From positions 1 through 39,617 of the IMG/VR virus record IMGVR_UViG_3300033143_001167: a DNA stretch of 39,617 bases; one strand, written 5' to 3'. This stretch comes from a virus. The position numbers and the translations under genes were made by a program. A model generated the notes under the pieces. The model worked only from the letters and a program-made list of their open reading frames with translations, searched no databases and was not told where the DNA came from. Below are positions 1,529-38,537 of this stretch, piece by piece; the first letter of the stretch is position 1; the number at the start of each line of letters is the position of its first letter.

Positions 1529-2116
1529 CTAGTCGTATCCAGGTCCAAAACCAGGTCCAAAACCTGATATGGCCGGTAGTGATGTGCCTTGATCTTCATT
1601 ACTATCCACAGATCCCTGTGAGTTAACAGCCTTAACATGTAATAACGCTGTACCCTCTCCGACAACATGTACGTATGGAGACGTTATGTTTTCGATTATA
1701 GGATTGACCCCACTGAATAAGTTATGTTGAGGAACAGGATTACCGGTAGCGTGCGTCCAGGTCATAGTTATCTGACCATGCTGGTCGTCACTAGCTACGA
1801 AGTCAATGATAGCACTAGGCAACGCGGGGGGTGGTGGTGTGCCGCTCCCACATAGCTCGTGCCAAAGCTCGTGCCACAGACCATCAAGTGTGCCAGCTGT
1901 AAGCCCTAGCGATACCATCCAGATAGCGTATCGATCACTTAACGCACCAGGCGGTACGCCATTAAGGTCTAGATACAACTCCCATAGATCAGCGTTAGAG
2001 CCCTCAACTCCTACTTCCGATGCTAACCATCGGTTTTCTAAACCATCTATGGCCCCAGTTGTTTCACCTGTTAACTGTAATAGAGCGCATAGTTTGTCGT
2101 CGTTTACATGTGGCAT
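1529..2116 (-). CDS. Small tail-associated protein with FN3-like region
   Basis: 195 residues, function unrecognised. The first 90 residues are compact and rich in Leu and Trp (LWELYLDLNGVPPGA, LWHELWHEL). A proline linker (TPPPPALP) follows. Next is a beta-rich segment of about 75 residues with the look of a fibronectin type III or Ig fold (ITMTWTHATGNPVPQH, then HVVGEGTALLHVKAVNSQGSV). The C-terminus is Gly/Phe/Pro-rich (FGPGFGPGYD). It lies between the two fibre genes, shares the TAATG stop-start overlap with the upstream fibre, and has a GAGGA ribosome site. Position suggests a fibre adaptor or decoration protein; this is inference. Confidence 0.75.
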   Translation of the reverse strand: MPHVNDDKLCALLQLTGETTGAIDGLENRWLASEVGVEGSNADLWELYLDLNGVPPGALSDRYAIWMVSLGLTAGTLDGLWHELWHELCGSGTPPPPALPSAIIDFVASDDQHGQITMTWTHATGNPVPQHNLFSGVNPIIENITSPYVHVVGEGTALLHVKAVNSQGSVDSNEDQGTSLPAISGFGPGFGPGYD

Positions 2117-4230
2117 TATACTGTCCTCGTCCAGATTTCTACGCCTACAAAAGTAGGTCTATTTTCTATCGAATTGCCATCTCCTTTCGCAGCGGTAACT
2201 ACAGCAAACGATCCCACAGATATAGCATGCGTATGATCTGCACTACCAACACCTGTGTTACCTGTTATGTCTCCACTAGGAGCACCTGCTGAAACCAAAC
2301 TGGTTTTAGGCATTGTAATAGGAGTCGAAGCATTATTACCTGATAAAGCATGTGTGCCGCCTGTGCTCAGAATGCCACTAGCTATCCAAGGAAGAACTAC
2401 TGCATCGTGGTCATGCGCTGGTAAGTCGTTACCATCAAAGTTTAAAGCACTACCGTCATGAACGTGATTAGCACTTTGCAGTCCCGAGTCAGTTGAAGGA
2501 TGGCCGTGATCCATAGTATGCGTATGTGATGGCAACTGTGCTTCTGATATAGTAACAGCATTCGAGCCACCACTAGGTTCAGCACCGCTTATGGTAGACA
2601 TCAGGAATGTTCCCTCAGGTACTTGTTCCCAAGTTCCTGGTAGAGAGCTATTCGGATTCGGGCCAATGCGATAAGAACCTACTGGGAATATATTACCCAT
2701 CATAGCATCCATCGCAGTTTTCACAGCCGTATCTAAATCCGTGATAGCATCCTCAACGTTATCAGTAGCAGGCCCTATGTAATTGTAGGCACTAACTGGG
2801 AAGGAAACAAACGCTGCACTGAAGTCCTTCAGATAGTTGTTCAGCCATTCCCATGCAGCTTGAAGATTAGACGCAGCTAGTGGCGGTAATGGAGCCTCAC
2901 CTATATAGTCAAGTGGGCCTTCGTCCAGTGAAGTAAGTACGGCAGTAGACATATCAAAGCGGTCAGGCATGTGATACCAGCCAACCGGTATAGTGGGTAT
3001 GGTAGCGATGACATCTATATACTGTATGCCATCATTAGAGCTTACTGCTACATCAGATAGCGTTATGACTCCTGGAGCAGTCTCGCTATACAAGCTGATA
3101 CGATTATCAGAAAGCTCTTCACCAGATGTTATAGTTACTGCGAAGAAGTCACCTGTCTCGAATACAGTACCTGGCAGTACGTCACTTGGATTGCGATAAT
3201 CTGGTGGTGCACATGGATCACCGCCTGGATCTAAGCCATCAAAGAACTTAGGACATAGGTTATCACCGCGCCAGCTACCTAGATTACGTAGGCCCTGGAA
3301 TGAAAGTAACTCAGCAGGTATCTGCCCATTGGCATCGGTAGCAACCAGTCGCTTGATGCCGTTGATGTTCTGTACTTGCATGACTTCAGCAAACGGAACA
3401 TCTACACCAGCTTGACGAGTGAACTTAATCAGATCATCAGTTATGTAGTCTGGATCGTATGGCAAGCCAAACGTACCGTCGTCAGACAGAACAGCAAATA
3501 GCAATGCTGGAGTATTCTCCAGTATGCTAAGAGGTATACCTCCAGGGAATTCAGGAGACACTACACCAGCCGGGTTAAGTTGCATGAGGCGACCAGGCGC
3601 GTTGATTCCAGGAATACCTATCAAAGGTAGACGTGCACCAAATGTGGCGTTGTCAACTAAGAGCAACTCTCTGGCATCTAGGAAACCGTTTACACCAGGT
3701 TGTACGTCTACGACTGTACCTGATACACCGCCTGGACCAGCAACCACCGTCACATTACCGAATACGTCGAAGGCCAGTACTTGCTCCTTACGAAAAGCTA
3801 TAGGAGGCACTTCTAGATTAAGCCCTAAAGGTATTTCGTTAGCGGGTATGTGTATGGTACCTTCGCCCGCTAGCGAGATTGCTTGCTGAACAAGCATGGT
3901 TAACTTGTCCAGCCCACGCTCGTGTGTGTCTGCAGGGAAGTCATCATATGGCGTATAATCGATTTCCTGAGTTGCAGGTACGTTACGACTAAGCGTGAGG
4001 TTAGCAACACCTGTCGGAGGTGGGTTAAGAGTGAAAGTTACGACACCACCATCTGGGTCGTCTACTCCACTGATCGTATATGGAAACGTAACATCATCTG
4101 GTGCGATAGGTATTAGGCTAATAAACACACCTAGATGAAGAGCATCTAGAATGCGGAATGGGTACGGGAATACTAGTGTGGCATCATCACCACTATAGAC
4201 TACCGTGTTGGTTTCAGTTGTTACAGTCAT
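2116..4230 (-). CDS. Tail fibre with T7-type N-terminal attachment domain
   Basis: 704 residues. The first 130 residues resemble the phage T7 tail-fibre N-terminal domain that attaches fibres to the tail: YSGDDATLVFPYPFRI, then a beta-rich stretch, then TLSRNVPATQEIDYTPYD and a helix (ERGLDKLTMLVQQ). The middle is a long beta-rich shaft. The last 180 residues form a histidine-rich tip (PGTWEQVPEGTFLMS, LPSHTHTMDHGH, ENRPTFVGVEIW) homologous to the tip of the collagen-like fibre. Start is ATG with GAGG seven bases upstream. It overlaps the internal-core gene stop (TAATG), as several late genes here do. Likely the main host-recognition fibre. Confidence 0.85.
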   Translation of the reverse strand: MTVTTETNTVVYSGDDATLVFPYPFRILDALHLGVFISLIPIAPDDVTFPYTISGVDDPDGGVVTFTLNPPPTGVANLTLSRNVPATQEIDYTPYDDFPADTHERGLDKLTMLVQQAISLAGEGTIHIPANEIPLGLNLEVPPIAFRKEQVLAFDVFGNVTVVAGPGGVSGTVVDVQPGVNGFLDARELLLVDNATFGARLPLIGIPGINAPGRLMQLNPAGVVSPEFPGGIPLSILENTPALLFAVLSDDGTFGLPYDPDYITDDLIKFTRQAGVDVPFAEVMQVQNINGIKRLVATDANGQIPAELLSFQGLRNLGSWRGDNLCPKFFDGLDPGGDPCAPPDYRNPSDVLPGTVFETGDFFAVTITSGEELSDNRISLYSETAPGVITLSDVAVSSNDGIQYIDVIATIPTIPVGWYHMPDRFDMSTAVLTSLDEGPLDYIGEAPLPPLAASNLQAAWEWLNNYLKDFSAAFVSFPVSAYNYIGPATDNVEDAITDLDTAVKTAMDAMMGNIFPVGSYRIGPNPNSSLPGTWEQVPEGTFLMSTISGAEPSGGSNAVTISEAQLPSHTHTMDHGHPSTDSGLQSANHVHDGSALNFDGNDLPAHDHDAVVLPWIASGILSTGGTHALSGNNASTPITMPKTSLVSAGAPSGDITGNTGVGSADHTHAISVGSFAVVTAAKGDGNSIENRPTFVGVEIWTRTV

Positions 4231-7200
4231 TATAATTCCTCGTTAATTGCATCTTGTGCGGTGTCAAATAGGGACCGTCTAAGTATGAAATGGTTTTGAT
4301 AAGGCGTCAGCCTTCTCGTAGCCTTCACTGTTGACGGACTTAGTTCTCCTGTTGATATAGCGTCCACTATCCCCGCTATCGATTGTCTAGCATCGTTTGC
4401 TGTTCCCCATGATGGTCCCATCAGGTCACCAAGCACACTACGTGATTGGTACTGTGTAATCGGCGGGCCTTCAGGCAACGGTAGCAAACTTACTTGTCCC
4501 TGAGTTAACTTCTCTGTGATGTTGTTAGCATACATAGGTAAAGCAAACACGCCTGACTTGTCTACACCTTCTCGAACCAGAGTTTCCCAGTCGTCTGATA
4601 TTTCACGACCAGCAGCTAACTCCTTAAGAGTGTATGACAGCACGCCGAGGCCAACCATCATGGTAGCTCCGAATGCCACATTGGGGTCATAACCAGCTTT
4701 CTGTATACCTGGTAAAAACAACTTGTTATGTGCTGTCATCATAAACGTCTTGAACTGGAATATCAATTTACCAGGACCTGTGCGAGCAAACAATGGGATG
4801 TCACCCACGCCAGGAGTTACGATCGCTGAGTCAGCTTCCTTAAGTACAGCTGCTGACAGTAGTCTCTCACTGCGTACGTCCCATGCAGATGTACCAAACT
4901 CATCGTGCATATTCGGAGAATGTAAACCTTGCTCGTCAGAACCTGTTCGCTTCCAGTTAGCTACGATCTTAGTCCAGTCATCTTCTGGTATACGTAATGA
5001 AGCGATGTACTGCTTGTCACGCATTGACAAATTCTGTTTATGTACCAGCTTACCAATACGGTGCATCACGCCAGTACCAGCCCAGGACTTAAGGAAACTG
5101 TTCCAGTATGGCATACCAGTAGCCTTAGTAAAGTTAACCTGGCCAGATTTCATTAGCTTATCAACTTTGCCTTGACCTGAATATGACTCGTTCAACATAC
5201 CAAGGGCGTTCTGGCGTGTGTGCAATGTCGCATCAAGTGCAACGCCAGCTGCGTTCAAATCAGATTTGCTCATCGCTCGGATTTCAGGAGATTGAGCCAA
5301 CTTCCTAGTTGCTGCAGCCATGTTACCTAGGCCAACACGAACGATCGCACTTCCTATATCTGGTATTGATGCAAGCATCATCGCACCAAGTGATGTCATG
5401 TAGTTAAGCTCACGTGCGCGTTTACCAGCTCTGTGCCACATCGACGCAGGATCCGTTGGCTCGGCGTACTTGTGAAGCATCATATCCCGCATAGCTTCCA
5501 AGTCCAGACGCACTCGAGTATTCTCATCATTGAGTTCTTTAGTAAACTTTTTAATAGCCTTTTGATCTTTAGGAGAATAGTCTTTCATCTCAACTTCAAC
5601 ACCATACGCATCTACATATGGTTTCATCTTGGCTTCGAGCATAGCGCCGTACTCTCTATCAATCTCAGTAAGAGCGTCTGTCATATGTATATCACCATCA
5701 AACTTTCGAGCGATCTCTAACTGAGGTACTTTAGCTTTCAAGTATGCACCTAGTGAAGCTGTTGGATCTTTGATAAGCCAGTCACGTATCACTGCAGAAG
5801 GTATATCAACATTATACTTTTGACCTTCTACTCTGAGCGTTACACCATGTCTAGCGTGATAACCAGTAGGTGACGCTTGCACTGACTTGATGTACCTGTG
5901 CACTGCATCGTATATGGTGTCATCGAAGTCGCCTACATCCAAACCCCTGACGAAGTCTTTTAGTTCATTCGGTATATTGTTTCTGATGTGCTCTACCATC
6001 TCCATAGTCATGCGGCGACTATCGTGCATGATCTTATCGAGGTCATATACTCGATGCACTGATTTCTTATCACCATGTGCGACAGTGATATTGCCTTCTT
6101 TATCAACGTTGATCAGTTTACCACTCTTATCAGAACCAGCAGCTTGGACGTCTGCGAGCTCCTTTTCAAGAGGTGATATAACTTTACTGCGTACTGTGAC
6201 TGCGGCCTGTGCAACTTCAGGTACCTTATGAACATCACCATCAATGATTGCATCGCCGATAGCATCCAGGAATTCCTGCTCCTTCATAGTACCACCATTC
6301 TTACGATATGCCGCAAAAGCTTGTTTAGTAATATCGATCACTTCGTATGTGCCAGACATCTCACGAGCTTTGGCAAGTGTCTCAGCTGATGCTTCTGAAG
6401 TAAGTCCATACTCGTTCTTCTGGCGTATCAAACTATCTTCAACCAGGTTTTCAACAGCGTCTCTCGCTTTCACACTACTGGATGTAGCTACTCGAATTTG
6501 TGGTGAAGCATGTCCGAAGATAGACATGATAGATCGCCCTCCTAATATTTTAAGAGGTTTGCCGTACTTCAATGACGTATTCTTTAACTCTTCATCACGT
6601 ACCAGCTTAGCAGCTTGGTGTTGTGTGAGTTCGCCCTTAGCTACTTTAATGCCAAGTTCGTTCATGAACTCTTCAGTCACGTTATGATTTATGTTAGAAG
6701 CTGATGAACCCGCTGCCATGTGATAATCACCAGCCATCCAGCCTTCACCCTTGACATCTACATCGAGGTCTTCTGCTAATTTAACCCGCTCAGTATTACC
6801 AAGCTTGAATGTCGCCGCGCCAAGTAAGCCTGCTAGGAATGCTGTACCACCTATGTTAAACAATGACTCGTTCAGCGTACGCTTAGGTTGCTGTTCGTGT
6901 AAGATCAATTCAGATCCTGTGACAAGACCAGCTTCGACACCTGCTGTCAGTCCAGCTTTGGCCAGGATAGATCCGTTCACTACTGGTACTGCAAATGCTG
7001 GTGCGTACATGGGTTCTAGTAAGCCACCGATCATACTCGCCCCGATCAACGTAGGGGTTGAAGCGTTAGACAATATCTCTTCTTCCCGTAACTGACGAGA
7101 GAAGATACCAGTCATCCAGTCAACTTCACGTTGTGACTTGGCTTCAGCAATCTTTTCAAGATAAACTGGGTGATCCCATTCAGTATCTTTTAGAGCCTCA

Positions 7201-22478: not shown

Positions 22479-22757
22479 ATGTTTAACGAGTATGACAGTT
22501 GCGTGAATGACTACAAACATGACCACGAGGACAGATCAATGAGTAATATGATTACGCTGAACCCCGCATTTGGACGGGATTACTCGTCGAGTGAGTATGT
22601 ATACGCTGCATGGAAACACGGACAGCCATTTAGAGTCTATCAGAAAGATCATGAATGGAACGGACGGATGATCAGTATACGTGATATAACTGATGAGACT
22701 GTGCGTGTACGGTTTAATAAAGGTACAGAGATCACATTAATAGGAGCAAAAGAATGA
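22479..22757 (+). CDS. Early protein, unknown
   Basis: Up to 92 residues. The first ATG (22479) is weakly supported. ATG 22539 (MSNMITLNPAFGRD...) has GAGGA at proper distance and may be the true start, giving 72 residues. The body (EYVYAAWKHGQPFRVYQKD, then RDITDETVRVRFNKGTEITL) is beta-rich, like a small SH3-like or translation-barrel fold. Its end overlaps the next gene by four bases (ATGA). Function unknown. Confidence 0.65.
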   Translation: MFNEYDSCVNDYKHDHEDRSMSNMITLNPAFGRDYSSSEYVYAAWKHGQPFRVYQKDHEWNGRMISIRDITDETVRVRFNKGTEITLIGAKE

Positions 22758-22975
22758 AGTGGCTTATAATATTAATGACAATAAGTACAGATGTGATAGC
22801 TCGCGGGAATAGTTGCGATTCTAGTTTAGGATGTAATTCGTTTATATATTTGTTAAATGCAGGGGTTGCATTTGGACTTGTAATGTTATACGAAAAGCTA
22901 TTCGGTTGGGGCGTAGGCGCATGTTGGACTGCTGGTATATTTACAGTTATAATAATGAGTGCCTTGTTTAAATGA
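22754..22975 (+). CDS. Small membrane protein, holin-like candidate
   Basis: 73 residues. A hydrophobic N-terminus (MKWLIILMTISTDVIA) resembles a signal or anchor. After a Cys-containing loop (NSCDSSLGC) come two further spans (YLLNAGVAFGLVMLYEKLF and CWTAGIFTVIIMSALFK). The size and topology suit a class I/II holin, but it is in the early operon rather than with late genes, so an anti-host membrane role is equally likely. Translationally coupled to the gene before it. Confidence 0.6.
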   Translation: MKWLIILMTISTDVIARGNSCDSSLGCNSFIYLLNAGVAFGLVMLYEKLFGWGVGACWTAGIFTVIIMSALFK

Positions 22976-22982
22976 GAACATA

Positions 22983-22994
22983 GCCAAGGATGGC
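22983..22994 (+). promoter_or_regulatory. CsrA-type hairpin, short stem
   Basis: GCCA-AGGA-TGGC just after the stop at 22975. The stem bases differ from the other copies but still pair, while the CA-AGGA-TG core is kept, which points to selection on the structure. Confidence 0.5.
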
Positions 22995-23066
22995 GCTGTA
23001 TGGCAGTGTGTACTGTCACTGAGGATTGCTAAAGCATGAAACAGCTAATAATATTCGGAGATACAA

Positions 23067-30936: not shown

Positions 30937-31296
30937 ATGGCTTTAGCAAAGAAGAAGTTGGTAAAAAAGAAAGTTGTCAAGAAAAAGCTGGTAAAGAAAG
31001 CGCCAGTTAAGAAGCTGGTAAAGAAAGCGCCAGTTAAGAAGCTGGTGAAGAAGAAAGCACCAGTCAAGAAAAAACCAGTAAGTAAAGGCGGCAAGTATCT
31101 ATACGAACCGTACCGTGAGAAAAAGAACATCGGTAACTGTGCTAAGAACTGCATCATGCGTGGCATGAGTACTGACGACATCGTCGACGCGGTTCGTGTT
31201 GAGTATCCTGATAGCAATATCACGTACAAGTCAATTGGCTACTACCGCAATGTACTGCGTAAGGAAGGTTACGACGTTCCTGATCCACGCGGTTAA
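30937..31296 (+). CDS. Histone H1-like tail fused to the small paralogous domain (paralogue 3)
   Basis: 119 residues. Residues 4-50 are almost only Lys, Val, Ala and Pro in repeats (KKLVKK, KAPVKK), like bacterial and eukaryotic H1-type tails that bind DNA nonspecifically. The DNA has an exact 27-base tandem repeat encoding LVKKAPVKK. From residue 51 (GGKYLYEPYREKKNIGNCAK) onward, the sequence aligns with paralogues 1 and 2: KNCIMRGMSTDDIVDAV, then YKSIGYYRNVLRKEGYD. So a DNA-compacting tail has been added to the same small domain. Good ribosome site (AGGAGG). It sits between nuclease and ssDNA-binding genes. Confidence 0.8.
   Translation: MALAKKKLVKKKVVKKKLVKKAPVKKLVKKAPVKKLVKKKAPVKKKPVSKGGKYLYEPYREKKNIGNCAKNCIMRGMSTDDIVDAVRVEYPDSNITYKSIGYYRNVLRKEGYDVPDPRG
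30988..31041 (+). repeat. Tandem 27-base repeat encoding LVKKAPVKK
   Basis: Two exact adjacent copies, 30988-31014 and 31015-31041, in the histone-like gene. A third, diverged copy follows. The repeat could expand or contract by slippage and so change tail length. Confidence 0.8.
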
Positions 31297-31311
31297 TTGA
31301 AGGACACATCT

Positions 31312-31323
31312 AACAAGGACGTT
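31312..31323 (+). promoter_or_regulatory. CsrA-type hairpin variant
   Basis: AACA-AGGA-CGTT between the histone-like gene and the ssDNA-binding gene, the same variant as at 30862-30873. The preceding bases (ACATCT) are also shared. Confidence 0.35.
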
Positions 31324-31354
31324 TTAACTTAGTATATCGAGGAGATATATAAAC

Positions 31355-32200
31355 ATGGCTATTAAGAAAAAAGCAGTAAAGAAGAAAGTTGCACCTAAGA
31401 AGAAAGTTGCAGTGAAGAAGAAAGTTGCAGTGAAGAAAGCTCCTGCTAAGAAAGCTCCTGCTAAGAAAGCTGCCACCAAGAAGCATGTGGAAATGGAAAC
31501 ACGGATTATAACCCCGTCGTTTGTAATTGCATTCCCTAGCTTGTTTAAACCGAAGCAGAATGATCGCGGCGGTGATGAGTACAGTTGTACTATGTACTTT
31601 GACAAAGACAGCACTGACATGGAGCTTATCCAGGGTGCTATCGATCAGGTCGTACATGATGAGTACAAAGGTAAAGTGGCTGGCATTCGTATGCCTATCC
31701 GCGATGGTGATGATGTCACTGATAACTACCATGAGTACGAAGGTACTGCGAACTGTTTAGTTGTCCAGGCCAAGTCAGTGTTTAAACCTGGCGTAGTTGA
31801 TGCGTCGCTACAGGATGTGATCGATCCTAGTATGATCTATCCTGGTGCAGTATGTCGTGCATCTATCTCAGCATTTGCATATGACTTCAATGGTAACAAG
31901 GGCATAAGCTTCAGCTTGAACAATGTACAGTTCCTGACTGATGGCGAACCTCTGACTGGTGCAGGTCGTAAAGCGTCTGATGAGTTCGGTGATGCTGAAG
32001 AAGCTGAGTACGAAGAGTACGAAGGTGGTGAAGATGCTGACCCTGAAGCAGAAGAAGAAGTTGAAGAAGATGCTGACCCTGAAGCAGAAGAAGAAGAAGC
32101 AGATGAAGGTGTCGAAGTTTATGAAAACGAAGACGGCGTCATGTGTTATGTGGATGAAGAAGGTTATGAAGTCGAGTACAACGAAGAAGACTTCGAGTAA
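31355..32200 (+). CDS. DUF2815-type ssDNA-binding protein with basic and acidic tails
   Basis: 281 residues. The core, about residues 48-205, has the DUF2815 (Enc34-type SSB) pattern: TPSFVIAFPSLFKPKQNDRG, EYSCTMYFDKDSTDME, then IRDGD and CRASISAFAYDFNGNKGISF with LNNVQFLTDGEPLTGAGRKA. The first 45 residues are a Lys/Ala/Val tail (AVKKKVAPKKK, KKAPAKKAPAKKAATKK). The last 70 are very acidic, with a duplicated EDADPEAEEE. Acidic SSB tails recruit replication proteins; the extra basic tail is odd. It would coat ssDNA for the neighbouring polymerase, nuclease and helicase. GAGGAG ribosome site. Confidence 0.88.
   Translation: MAIKKKAVKKKVAPKKKVAVKKKVAVKKAPAKKAPAKKAATKKHVEMETRIITPSFVIAFPSLFKPKQNDRGGDEYSCTMYFDKDSTDMELIQGAIDQVVHDEYKGKVAGIRMPIRDGDDVTDNYHEYEGTANCLVVQAKSVFKPGVVDASLQDVIDPSMIYPGAVCRASISAFAYDFNGNKGISFSLNNVQFLTDGEPLTGAGRKASDEFGDAEEAEYEEYEGGEDADPEAEEEVEEDADPEAEEEEADEGVEVYENEDGVMCYVDEEGYEVEYNEEDFE
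32030..32095 (+). repeat. 36-base-period repeat encoding the acidic SSB tail
   Basis: A 30-base unit beginning GAAGATGCTGACCCTGAAGC occurs at 32030-32059 and 32066-32095. It encodes EDADPEAEEE twice. Confidence 0.8.
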
Positions 32201-36473: not shown

Positions 36474-36785
36474 ATGACAGACACACAAGACATCCTTGCG
36501 GAAGCTGCTGAGATCCTCAACGGCGACCGTCGTGAGGCCTACGGGGGCGTTAAACAATCGTTCTCAAACTTGTCCCGCATGTGGACTTTAATACTTGGTC
36601 ATGACGTCACACCATCGCAGGTGTGTTTATGTATGATAGGATTGAAGATCACACGTGAATTGAATTGTCACAAGCGTGACAACCTGGTCGACTTGGCAGG
36701 CTATTCCAAGTTACTATCTATGTTAGAAGGTGATGAAGAGATCCCGCATGTGGGTCCAGCTACAGCCTCTAGCAGAAATACATAG
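36474..36785 (+). CDS. DUF6378-like protein
   Basis: 103 residues. The pattern ILAEAAEILNGDRREAYGG, then FSNLSRMWTLILG and VCLCMIGLKITRELNCHKRD followed by DNLVDLAGYSKLL resembles a phage domain often found beside MazG-like and thymidylate synthase genes. The helical ND-NLVDLAGY part recalls all-alpha NTP pyrophosphatases, so a nucleotide-related role is plausible. GGAG precedes the ATG. First gene of the nucleotide module. Confidence 0.7.
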   Translation: MTDTQDILAEAAEILNGDRREAYGGVKQSFSNLSRMWTLILGHDVTPSQVCLCMIGLKITRELNCHKRDNLVDLAGYSKLLSMLEGDEEIPHVGPATASSRNT

Positions 36786-36794
36786 GAGATAGAG

Positions 36795-37631
36795 ATGAAG
36801 CAGTATCAAAACCTGCTCAAAGAAGTAATACAACACGGTGACGTTCGTATGGATCGCACTGGAGTTGGAACCAAAGCACTATTTGGTAAGCACCTACATT
36901 TTGATTTGAATACAGGCTTTCCTGCTGTGACAATCAAGAAGCTGGCGTTTAAGATGTGTATGAGCGAGCTATCATGGATGTTGAAAGGCATTCGTGATAT
37001 AGGTCCTATGCAAGCTGACGGGTGTCGTATTTGGGATGGCAATGTGGAAGCTGAGTATTGGCAAGACAATAAGGAATGCAGAGACGATCGAGATGCTGGT
37101 CGTATCTATGGTGTACAATGGCGTGACTGGCGTGCGGATCCTTCGAAGGATGCCATAAGTATTGACCAGTTACGTGATGTGGTTAACCGCATTAAGATGA
37201 ACCCAGCAGATCGACGGTTGGTAGTTACGGCCTGGAATCCTGGTGAGCTTGATGAAATGTGCTTGCCGCCTTGTCATATGTTCTATCAGTTCTTTGTAAG
37301 GAATGGTAAGTTCCTGGACTGTCAGGTATATATGCGATCAGTGGATCTTGTACTTGGCCTACCATTTGATATTGCATCATATGCGATGCTGACAACGATC
37401 GTGGCTAATGAGACTGGGTATCTACCTGGTCATTTGAATTGGGCACTAGGTGATACTCACATTTACTTGAACCATACTGACGCTGCAAAGGAGATGATAA
37501 ACAGATTGCCTTATCAAGCTCCACAGATCACGTATGACAGTGATATAAGTATCGACAACTTTGAACTGCACAACGTACGGCTTGATAATTACAAGCACCA
37601 CGATGCAGTTGATGCAAAACTAAACGTTTAA
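36795..37631 (+). CDS. Thymidylate synthase family; predicted dCMP methylase or hydroxymethylase
   Basis: 278 residues with all main thymidylate synthase features: phosphate-binding DRTGVGT with Arg21; SELSWMLKG; IWDGN; GRIYGVQWRDW; DRRLVVTAWNPGELDEM; LPPCH with catalytic Cys160; and YMRSVDLVLGLPF with Arg181 and Asp184. The residue equal to E. coli Asn177 is Asp192 (LGLPFDIASY; codon GAT at 37368-37370). In known enzymes Asn here binds uracil. Asp is found in T4 dCMP hydroxymethylase, and the Asn-to-Asp change in L. casei enzyme gives dCMP methylation. It therefore probably makes 5-methyl- or 5-hydroxymethyl-dCMP using methylene-tetrahydrofolate. A dUMP enzyme is less likely. Neighbours are MazG-like and dCMP deaminase genes. 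Confidence 0.82.
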   Translation: MKQYQNLLKEVIQHGDVRMDRTGVGTKALFGKHLHFDLNTGFPAVTIKKLAFKMCMSELSWMLKGIRDIGPMQADGCRIWDGNVEAEYWQDNKECRDDRDAGRIYGVQWRDWRADPSKDAISIDQLRDVVNRIKMNPADRRLVVTAWNPGELDEMCLPPCHMFYQFFVRNGKFLDCQVYMRSVDLVLGLPFDIASYAMLTTIVANETGYLPGHLNWALGDTHIYLNHTDAAKEMINRLPYQAPQITYDSDISIDNFELHNVRLDNYKHHDAVDAKLNV

Positions 37632-37638
37632 GGAGATA

Positions 37639-38103
37639 ATGATGGAAGATAATAGCAACGAAGCAATTCGTGACGGTGTGATGAAAGGCAAACTAGAGCA
37701 TATCGACATGCTCTTGGATATAGCAGCTTTTCATAGCAAGTTTGAAATACCTAGGCTGCCACAACCTGGCTTGCTGTCGGTGGAAGATATGGGATTTCGT
37801 ATCGGATTCTTATTCGAAGAGATGCAGGAGCTCGTTACAGCGTATGAAACCGATGATCTTGAAGAGCAGTTTGACGCTTTGATCGATCTAGTTTATGTCG
37901 CACTCGGTACAGCATGGATGATGGGCTTACCCTTCGGCGAAGGCTGGTCACGTGTACATCGTGCTAACATGAAGAAGGTGCGCTGTACTGACGAGTTTGA
38001 TGAGCGTTCTAAACGTATGCACAAACTTGATGTGGTTAAGCCCGAAGGCTGGGTAGCTCCTGACCTACGTGATCTGATCTCACCGATTGTGATAAAGAAA
38101 TGA
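37639..38103 (+). CDS. MazG-like nucleoside triphosphate pyrophosphohydrolase
   Basis: 154 residues. The all-alpha NTP pyrophosphatase signature is FLFEEMQELVTAYETDD, followed by EEQFDALIDLVYVALGTAW: an ExxE...ExxD metal site. The C-terminus adds GEGWSRVHRANMKKVR, typical of the phage MazG/dCTPase group. Such enzymes hydrolyse dNTPs to dNMPs; here dCTP would give dCMP, the substrate of both the upstream enzyme and the downstream deaminase, and would keep plain dCTP out of DNA. Substrate is inferred from context. AGGAG site; it overlaps the deaminase by four bases. Confidence 0.82.
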   Translation: MMEDNSNEAIRDGVMKGKLEHIDMLLDIAAFHSKFEIPRLPQPGLLSVEDMGFRIGFLFEEMQELVTAYETDDLEEQFDALIDLVYVALGTAWMMGLPFGEGWSRVHRANMKKVRCTDEFDERSKRMHKLDVVKPEGWVAPDLRDLISPIVIKK

Positions 38104-38537
38104 GTAGACCTACCATATCAAAGACGTTCATGGATATTGCACGCACTCTTGCGAAACGTGCGACTTGCGGTCGTCGCCAAGTAGGTTGTGTACTAGTCAA
38201 TGGTCGGAATCACATCATAGCGACAGGCTATAATGGCGTGGCTAAAGGACGAGACCACTGCATAGACACCCCTTGTGCTGGAGCGGATCTTCCGTCTGGT
38301 GTAGGTCATGATGTCTGTGAAGCGATCCACGCAGAACAGAATGCTTTGCTACAGTGTAGTGACGTATATCAGATTAGCGACTGCTATACGACTACTGCAC
38401 CATGTATGGCCTGTACCAAGCTGTTGTTGAATACGAGCTGTCAGCGTATCTTCTTTGCAGAAGGATATGACGTACATTGTGAAGCGCGTGAACTCTGGGA
38501 GAAAGCAGGACGCTCTTGGATTAAATTAACTAACTAA
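38100..38537 (+). CDS. dCMP deaminase
   Basis: 145 residues. The zinc deaminase motifs are HAEQNA (His77, catalytic Glu79) and PCMAC (Cys102, Cys105). Upstream, RRQVGCVLV and ATGYNGV are typical of the dCMP/ComE-type family. It converts dCMP to dUMP for dTMP synthesis by a thymidylate synthase. If the phage enzyme upstream uses dCMP instead, dUMP would go to the host enzyme, as T4 keeps both routes. Start ATG overlaps the MazG-like stop (ATGA). Its end is followed by a short membrane gene. Confidence 0.88.
   Translation: MSRPTISKTFMDIARTLAKRATCGRRQVGCVLVNGRNHIIATGYNGVAKGRDHCIDTPCAGADLPSGVGHDVCEAIHAEQNALLQCSDVYQISDCYTTTAPCMACTKLLLNTSCQRIFFAEGYDVHCEARELWEKAGRSWIKLTN

Follow-up and report, generated by a model that had tools for sequence, protein, structure and literature searches.

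The locus studied here raises the question of which pyrimidine nucleotide serves as substrate for a phage protein that belongs, by family, to the thymidylate synthases (TS), and of what its product does to the phage DNA. The window, by which we mean the whole stretch of DNA analysed, is an IMG/VR virus record of 39,617 bases. Its structural half runs leftward (terminase, podovirus-type portal, major head and tail genes) and its replication half rightward, with a primase-like protein, a DUF2800 nuclease, an Enc34-type single-stranded DNA-binding protein, a family A polymerase, an endonuclease and a SNF2-type helicase. Two adjacent early proteins at 30937-32200, one of them the single-stranded DNA-binding protein, start with tails rich in lysine and alanine, of the KKAPVKK type. 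After the replication genes comes a four-gene nucleotide module, entirely on the plus strand. It is led by a DUF6378 protein of 103 residues (36474-36785; PF19905, E 1e-23), possibly a small all-alpha MazG-like hydrolase, which the original prediction did not mention; PHROGs names its relatives (phrog_474, phrog_1167) 'phosphofructokinase', an apparent misannotation in view of the size of the protein. Next stand the TS-family gene, coding for a predicted dCMP methylase of 278 residues (36795-37631), a MazG-like nucleotide pyrophosphohydrolase of 154 residues akin to DR2231 (37639-38103; PF01503, E 2e-11; phrog_671; DR2231 structures), and a dCMP-deaminase family protein of 145 residues (38100-38537; PF00383, E 4e-20) that matches solved dCMP deaminases. 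The profile matches thus bear out the original prediction as to the last two neighbours. Family and PHROGs searches of the window found no glycosyl- or carbamoyltransferase or other tailoring enzyme; thymidylate kinase, dihydrofolate reductase (DHFR), ThyX and a second TS were likewise searched for in the window and not found. As the last two are missing from it, thymidylate would come either from the host or from a route combining methylase and deaminase.

The TS-family protein is covered over its whole length by PF00303 (E 4e-90) and also matches TIGR03284. Its AlphaFold2 model (pLDDT 84) has thymidylate synthases as its best solved folds, and the nearest of these include the N229D variant of the Lactobacillus casei enzyme with dCMP (1njc). 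In an alignment of 17 rows, Arg21, Glu58, Tyr105, Arg140, Arg141, Cys160, His161, Arg181, Ser182, Asp184, His222 and Tyr224 vary little or not at all, and all the residues that mark the family in Escherichia coli numbering (R21, E58, Y94, C146, R166, S167, D169, H207, Y209) are present together with the full-length domain. The catalytic cysteine, Cys160 (codon 37272-37274), corresponds to E. coli Cys146. The exception lies in the segment LGLPFDIASY, where Asp192 (codon GAT, 37368-37370) occupies the pyrimidine-specificity position, that of E. coli Asn177, and aligns with Asp179 of T4 dCMP hydroxymethylase. The switch at this site was the core of the original prediction, which also held that Arg21, Cys160, Arg181 and Asp184 are kept; both statements are confirmed by the alignment. 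Another deviation is Cys156 (37260-37262), at the position of E. coli Ala142, four residues before the catalytic cysteine, where most TS have alanine. It is found in 25 of 33 Asp-type rows against 1 of 176 Asn-type rows, and is, judging from these rows, probably a clade marker. The idea that Cys156 and Asp192 form a functional covarying pair was dropped, the independent-pairs test having had a mere two to three pairs and therefore no power.

What such an aspartate does has been learnt both from engineering and from metagenomes. TS mutants carrying the Asn177-to-Asp change turn to dCMP and yield 5-methyl-dCMP, according to work cited in PMC8670742. In the MetaGPA survey, no family was more strongly associated with cytosine-modified phage contigs than TS, and most of the modified contigs had Asp177; PF01503, PF00383 and PF14437 were among the co-occurring families, and position 147 was altered as well (PMC8670742). 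All three co-occurring families are matched in the window. At position 147 the window keeps a histidine, His161, unlike the change flagged by MetaGPA.

Several observations place the aspartate in an evolutionary context. A protein 77% identical to that of the window is encoded on contig QNDS01000221.1 (L194), which is 5.4 kb long and catalogued as part of a Candidatus Fermentibacteria MAG; its module (1983-4265) has the same gene order, including the position of the DUF6378 gene. That contig is probably a binned phage contig and a close relative of the window. Its protein has the aspartate too, which rules out a sequencing error and indicates that the change is old and has been kept. Cellular homologues of Asp type were also considered and rejected, the best bacterial matches (Nealsonbacteria and other CPR, 48-51% identity) being of Asn type. 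Among viruses, a first scan of 80 loci gave three further Asp-type proteins (L002, L016, L022), and a degenerate search with LG-x-P-F-D-[IV]-A retrieved 34 viral stretches with the aspartate. When a phage collection was searched with L002 as query, none of the Asp-type isolates among the matches listed was closer. In a tree of 118 rows, from which the Asp and Cys156 columns had been removed, 3 changes suffice to account for the Asp label, where shuffles take 27.7; for a more careful tree of 55 rows the figures are 4 and 17.8. Many Asp rows in these trees had been gathered through an Asp-bearing pattern. In the 55-row tree the window and its sister lie within an Asp-only group, from which the mostly-Asn rows separate at 91/94 support. 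Four Asp-types (L160, L166, L167 and VibSD25) fall among Asn-types, so that the aspartate was gained or lost more than once. Asp-type TS also occur in the isolated, cultivable phages VPMS1, RDJL3, VibSD25 and EcoBD211 (L266, L268, L271, L272), several being annotated as plain thymidylate synthase. One Asp-type record (L163) has two TS-family genes (G004:C1:18877-19692 and 22510-23019), the second weak and divergent.

The neighbourhood was approached from both sides. When TS was the starting point, 14 of 23 loci of Asp type had a dCMP deaminase nearby and none of 53 loci of Asn type did (Fisher 1e-9); for a pyrophosphohydrolase (searched with the DLP4 protein as seed) the figures are 12 of 23 against 1 of 53, and for DUF6378 7 of 23 against 1 of 53. 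These are undercounts, because several Asp loci are short, and the loci lack phylogenetic independence. When the deaminase was the sole starting point, with no selection on TS, 80 viral loci were found, many of them near-copies of one another. A TS-family gene is near 77 of these, within 100 bases in 70 cases, and every one of the 77 neighbours has Asp at the specificity position; the pyrophosphohydrolase is present at 68 of the loci. Two of the deaminase-linked Asp-type phages (L303, L337) have ThyX, a separate source of thymidylate. Taken with the tree, the MetaGPA results and the literature on phage XP-12, this enrichment and its reciprocal support what had been proposed from the bare locus, a dCMP substrate and cytosine modification; on these comparisons, dCMP as substrate of the window protein is well supported.

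Against this background, an ordinary dUMP-using thymidylate synthase that merely tolerates Asp appears highly improbable. Sequence and fold are indeed those of a TS overall, with the other catalytic residues all kept. A place inside a dUMP-specific Asn clade was nevertheless sought and not found, the window grouping with Asp-bearing phage proteins; the aspartate is conserved among its kin, the neighbouring genes are specific to Asp-types, and the published mutants with that single change prefer dCMP, as cited in PMC8670742. Less improbable, yet still unlikely, is a dCMP hydroxymethylase like T4 gp42, in which water would attack the methylene intermediate and the DNA would come to contain 5-hydroxymethylcytosine. 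Asp192 is the counterpart of T4 Asp179, and among the 77 TS-family proteins beside related deaminases, 73 do have the hydroxymethylase aspartate three residues before the catalytic cysteine. That signature consists of an Asp or Glu at this site, which activates water, and of a Ser or Thr two residues before the catalytic tyrosine; the T4 D145N variant gives no product (PMC6400193). The window protein differs from the 73 in having Leu157 (37263-37265) at the site, as in thymidylate synthases. Before Tyr105 it reads G-R-I-Y-G, with Arg103 two residues ahead and Ile104 next, where T4 has Ser94. Nor does it share the missing C-terminal tail of T4 gp42: from Tyr224 to the end, AKLNV, there are 55 residues, against 14 after the corresponding tyrosine in T4-type loci. 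The relatives of XP-12, near a phage known for 5-methylcytosine, also do without the aspartate, DLP4 and AXL1 having Asn there, as do RDJL3 and ewik_TL4, which agrees with methylation by XP-12. Given Leu157, the absence of Ser or Thr two before Tyr105 and the full-length tail, 5-methyl-dCMP is the better prediction for the product from the residues present. The original prediction had left 5-methyl- and 5-hydroxymethylcytosine side by side; its methyl half is favoured, while the hydroxymethylase signature is absent. Many phage TS-family proteins (L273-L352), encoded directly ahead of a dCMP deaminase, share the motif KD[IV]PCT, which puts Asp at -3 and Thr at 147, and have Asp at 177 as well; these are candidate hydroxymethylases that, unlike T4, keep a long C-terminal tail.

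The deaminase leads to a further alternative. It has the HxE and PCxxC motifs (HAE, PCMAC) and an aromatic residue, Trp133 (38496-38498), at the presumed methyl-contacting site, conserved in 79 of 80 relatives. Literature cited in PMC12088426 has dCMP deaminases accepting 5-methyl-dCMP, and an XP-12 deaminase, its Trp128 lying close to the methyl group, that specifically converts 5-methyl-dCTP into dTTP. A tryptophan of the same number is present in AXL1 and aligns with Trp133 of the window. By analogy with XP-12, the deaminase may act on the methylated nucleotide, besides dCMP, to give thymidine nucleotides. One might then suppose that methylase and deaminase mainly form a dUMP-independent thymidine route, from dCMP through 5-methyl-dCMP to dTMP or through the triphosphates, the phage DNA having little or no 5-methylcytosine. 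In addition to the reported activities and the aligned aromatic residue, the lack of ThyX or a second TS among the genes found in the window and the single TS of most Asp-type records speak for this. It is nonetheless a rather remote prospect, somewhat more so than hydroxymethylation: XP-12 combines its thymidine route with complete replacement of cytosine, a pyrophosphohydrolase suits the removal of dCTP, and MetaGPA ties Asp177 to modified DNA (PMC8670742). Members of this deaminase family, moreover, also stand beside hydroxymethylase-like enzymes, a pairing that would yield no thymidine; as Trp133 is present in those relatives too, it is not methyl-specific by itself.

XP-12 has been a precedent for cytosine-methylating chemistry for 40 years. 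The comparison was made through its kin DLP4 and AXL1 (Bradleyvirinae), the record of XP-12 itself being MT664984. Like the window protein, their TS have Asp at the Asn177 position and neither Asp nor Glu at -3, and like it they are clustered with a pyrophosphohydrolase and a deaminase, in the order pyrophosphohydrolase-TS-deaminase-DHFR, whereas the window is without DHFR. The TS are not orthologous: identity to the window protein is about 25%, they stand on a separate branch of the tree, and their residues at -3 and at the His147 position are Asn and Pro, against Leu and His in the window. AXL1 DNA resists enzymes having G or C in their sites. In the window, restriction palindromes of 6 bases are avoided and those of 4 bases are not. 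With T4 gp42 the window protein has in common the TS fold, the aspartate for cytosine and the catalytic cysteine; Asp145, Ser94, the missing tail and an identity of 18% set the T4 enzyme apart. The TS of the MetaGPA contigs (PF00303) have the same Asp177 and the same co-occurring families, and the window differs in being without a carbamoyltransferase and in its histidine at 147 (PMC8670742). L. casei N229D and E. coli N177D combine the same scaffold with the same substitution, engineered in their case, natural in the window.

The explanation that we consider best, with a probability of roughly 0.7, is that the gene codes for a dCMP methylase that provides for 5-methylcytosine and resembles the XP-12 system in function. 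The TS-fold enzyme would bind dCMP owing to Asp192, which stands in place of the dUMP-specifying asparagine; a one-carbon unit from methylene-tetrahydrofolate would be moved to C5 and reduced, giving 5-methyl-dCMP. The adjacent MazG-like pyrophosphohydrolase, a candidate dCTP/dUTP hydrolase, would probably deplete dCTP and at the same time supply dCMP. A host kinase, none having been found in the phage, would lift 5-methyl-dCMP to the triphosphate, which the phage polymerase would insert into the phage DNA, and the DNA would thereby be shielded from restriction. The deaminase would balance the pyrimidine pool by way of dCMP, of 5-methyl-dC nucleotides, or both; from the methylated nucleotides it would produce thymidine nucleotides with no need of dUMP. 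The sequence itself shows Asp192, the intact catalytic set, the place in the tree, the gene linkage and the lack of the hydroxymethylase signature, whereas we infer the dCMP substrate, the methyl product, dCTP hydrolysis, the part of the host kinase, 5-methylcytosine in the virion and protection from restriction.

That Asp177 goes with cytosine modification of phage DNA, and with these neighbouring genes, is already known (PMC8670742), as is the chemistry of XP-12. Two findings are added here: Asp-types divide by having Leu, Asn or Asp at -3, and the linkage holds from the side of the deaminase as well, in 77 of 77 cases. A bolder and quite tentative proposal is that these genes belong to a second natural lineage of dCMP methylases, derived from ordinary thymidylate synthase, apart from the XP-12 enzyme and widespread in uncultivated phages, which together with the deaminase would turn dCMP into 5-methyl-dCTP as well as dTTP without passing through dUMP. 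Should the methylase reading be true, the enzyme would be a natural counterpart to the engineered Asn-to-Asp mutants of TS, and the residue three positions before the catalytic cysteine would serve as an easy marker for telling a methyl from a hydroxymethyl product by sequence. Whole-genome 5-methylcytosine would then be a recurrent strategy of small tailed phages, beyond XP-12, making them resistant to many restriction enzymes while exposing them to those that depend on 5-methylcytosine.
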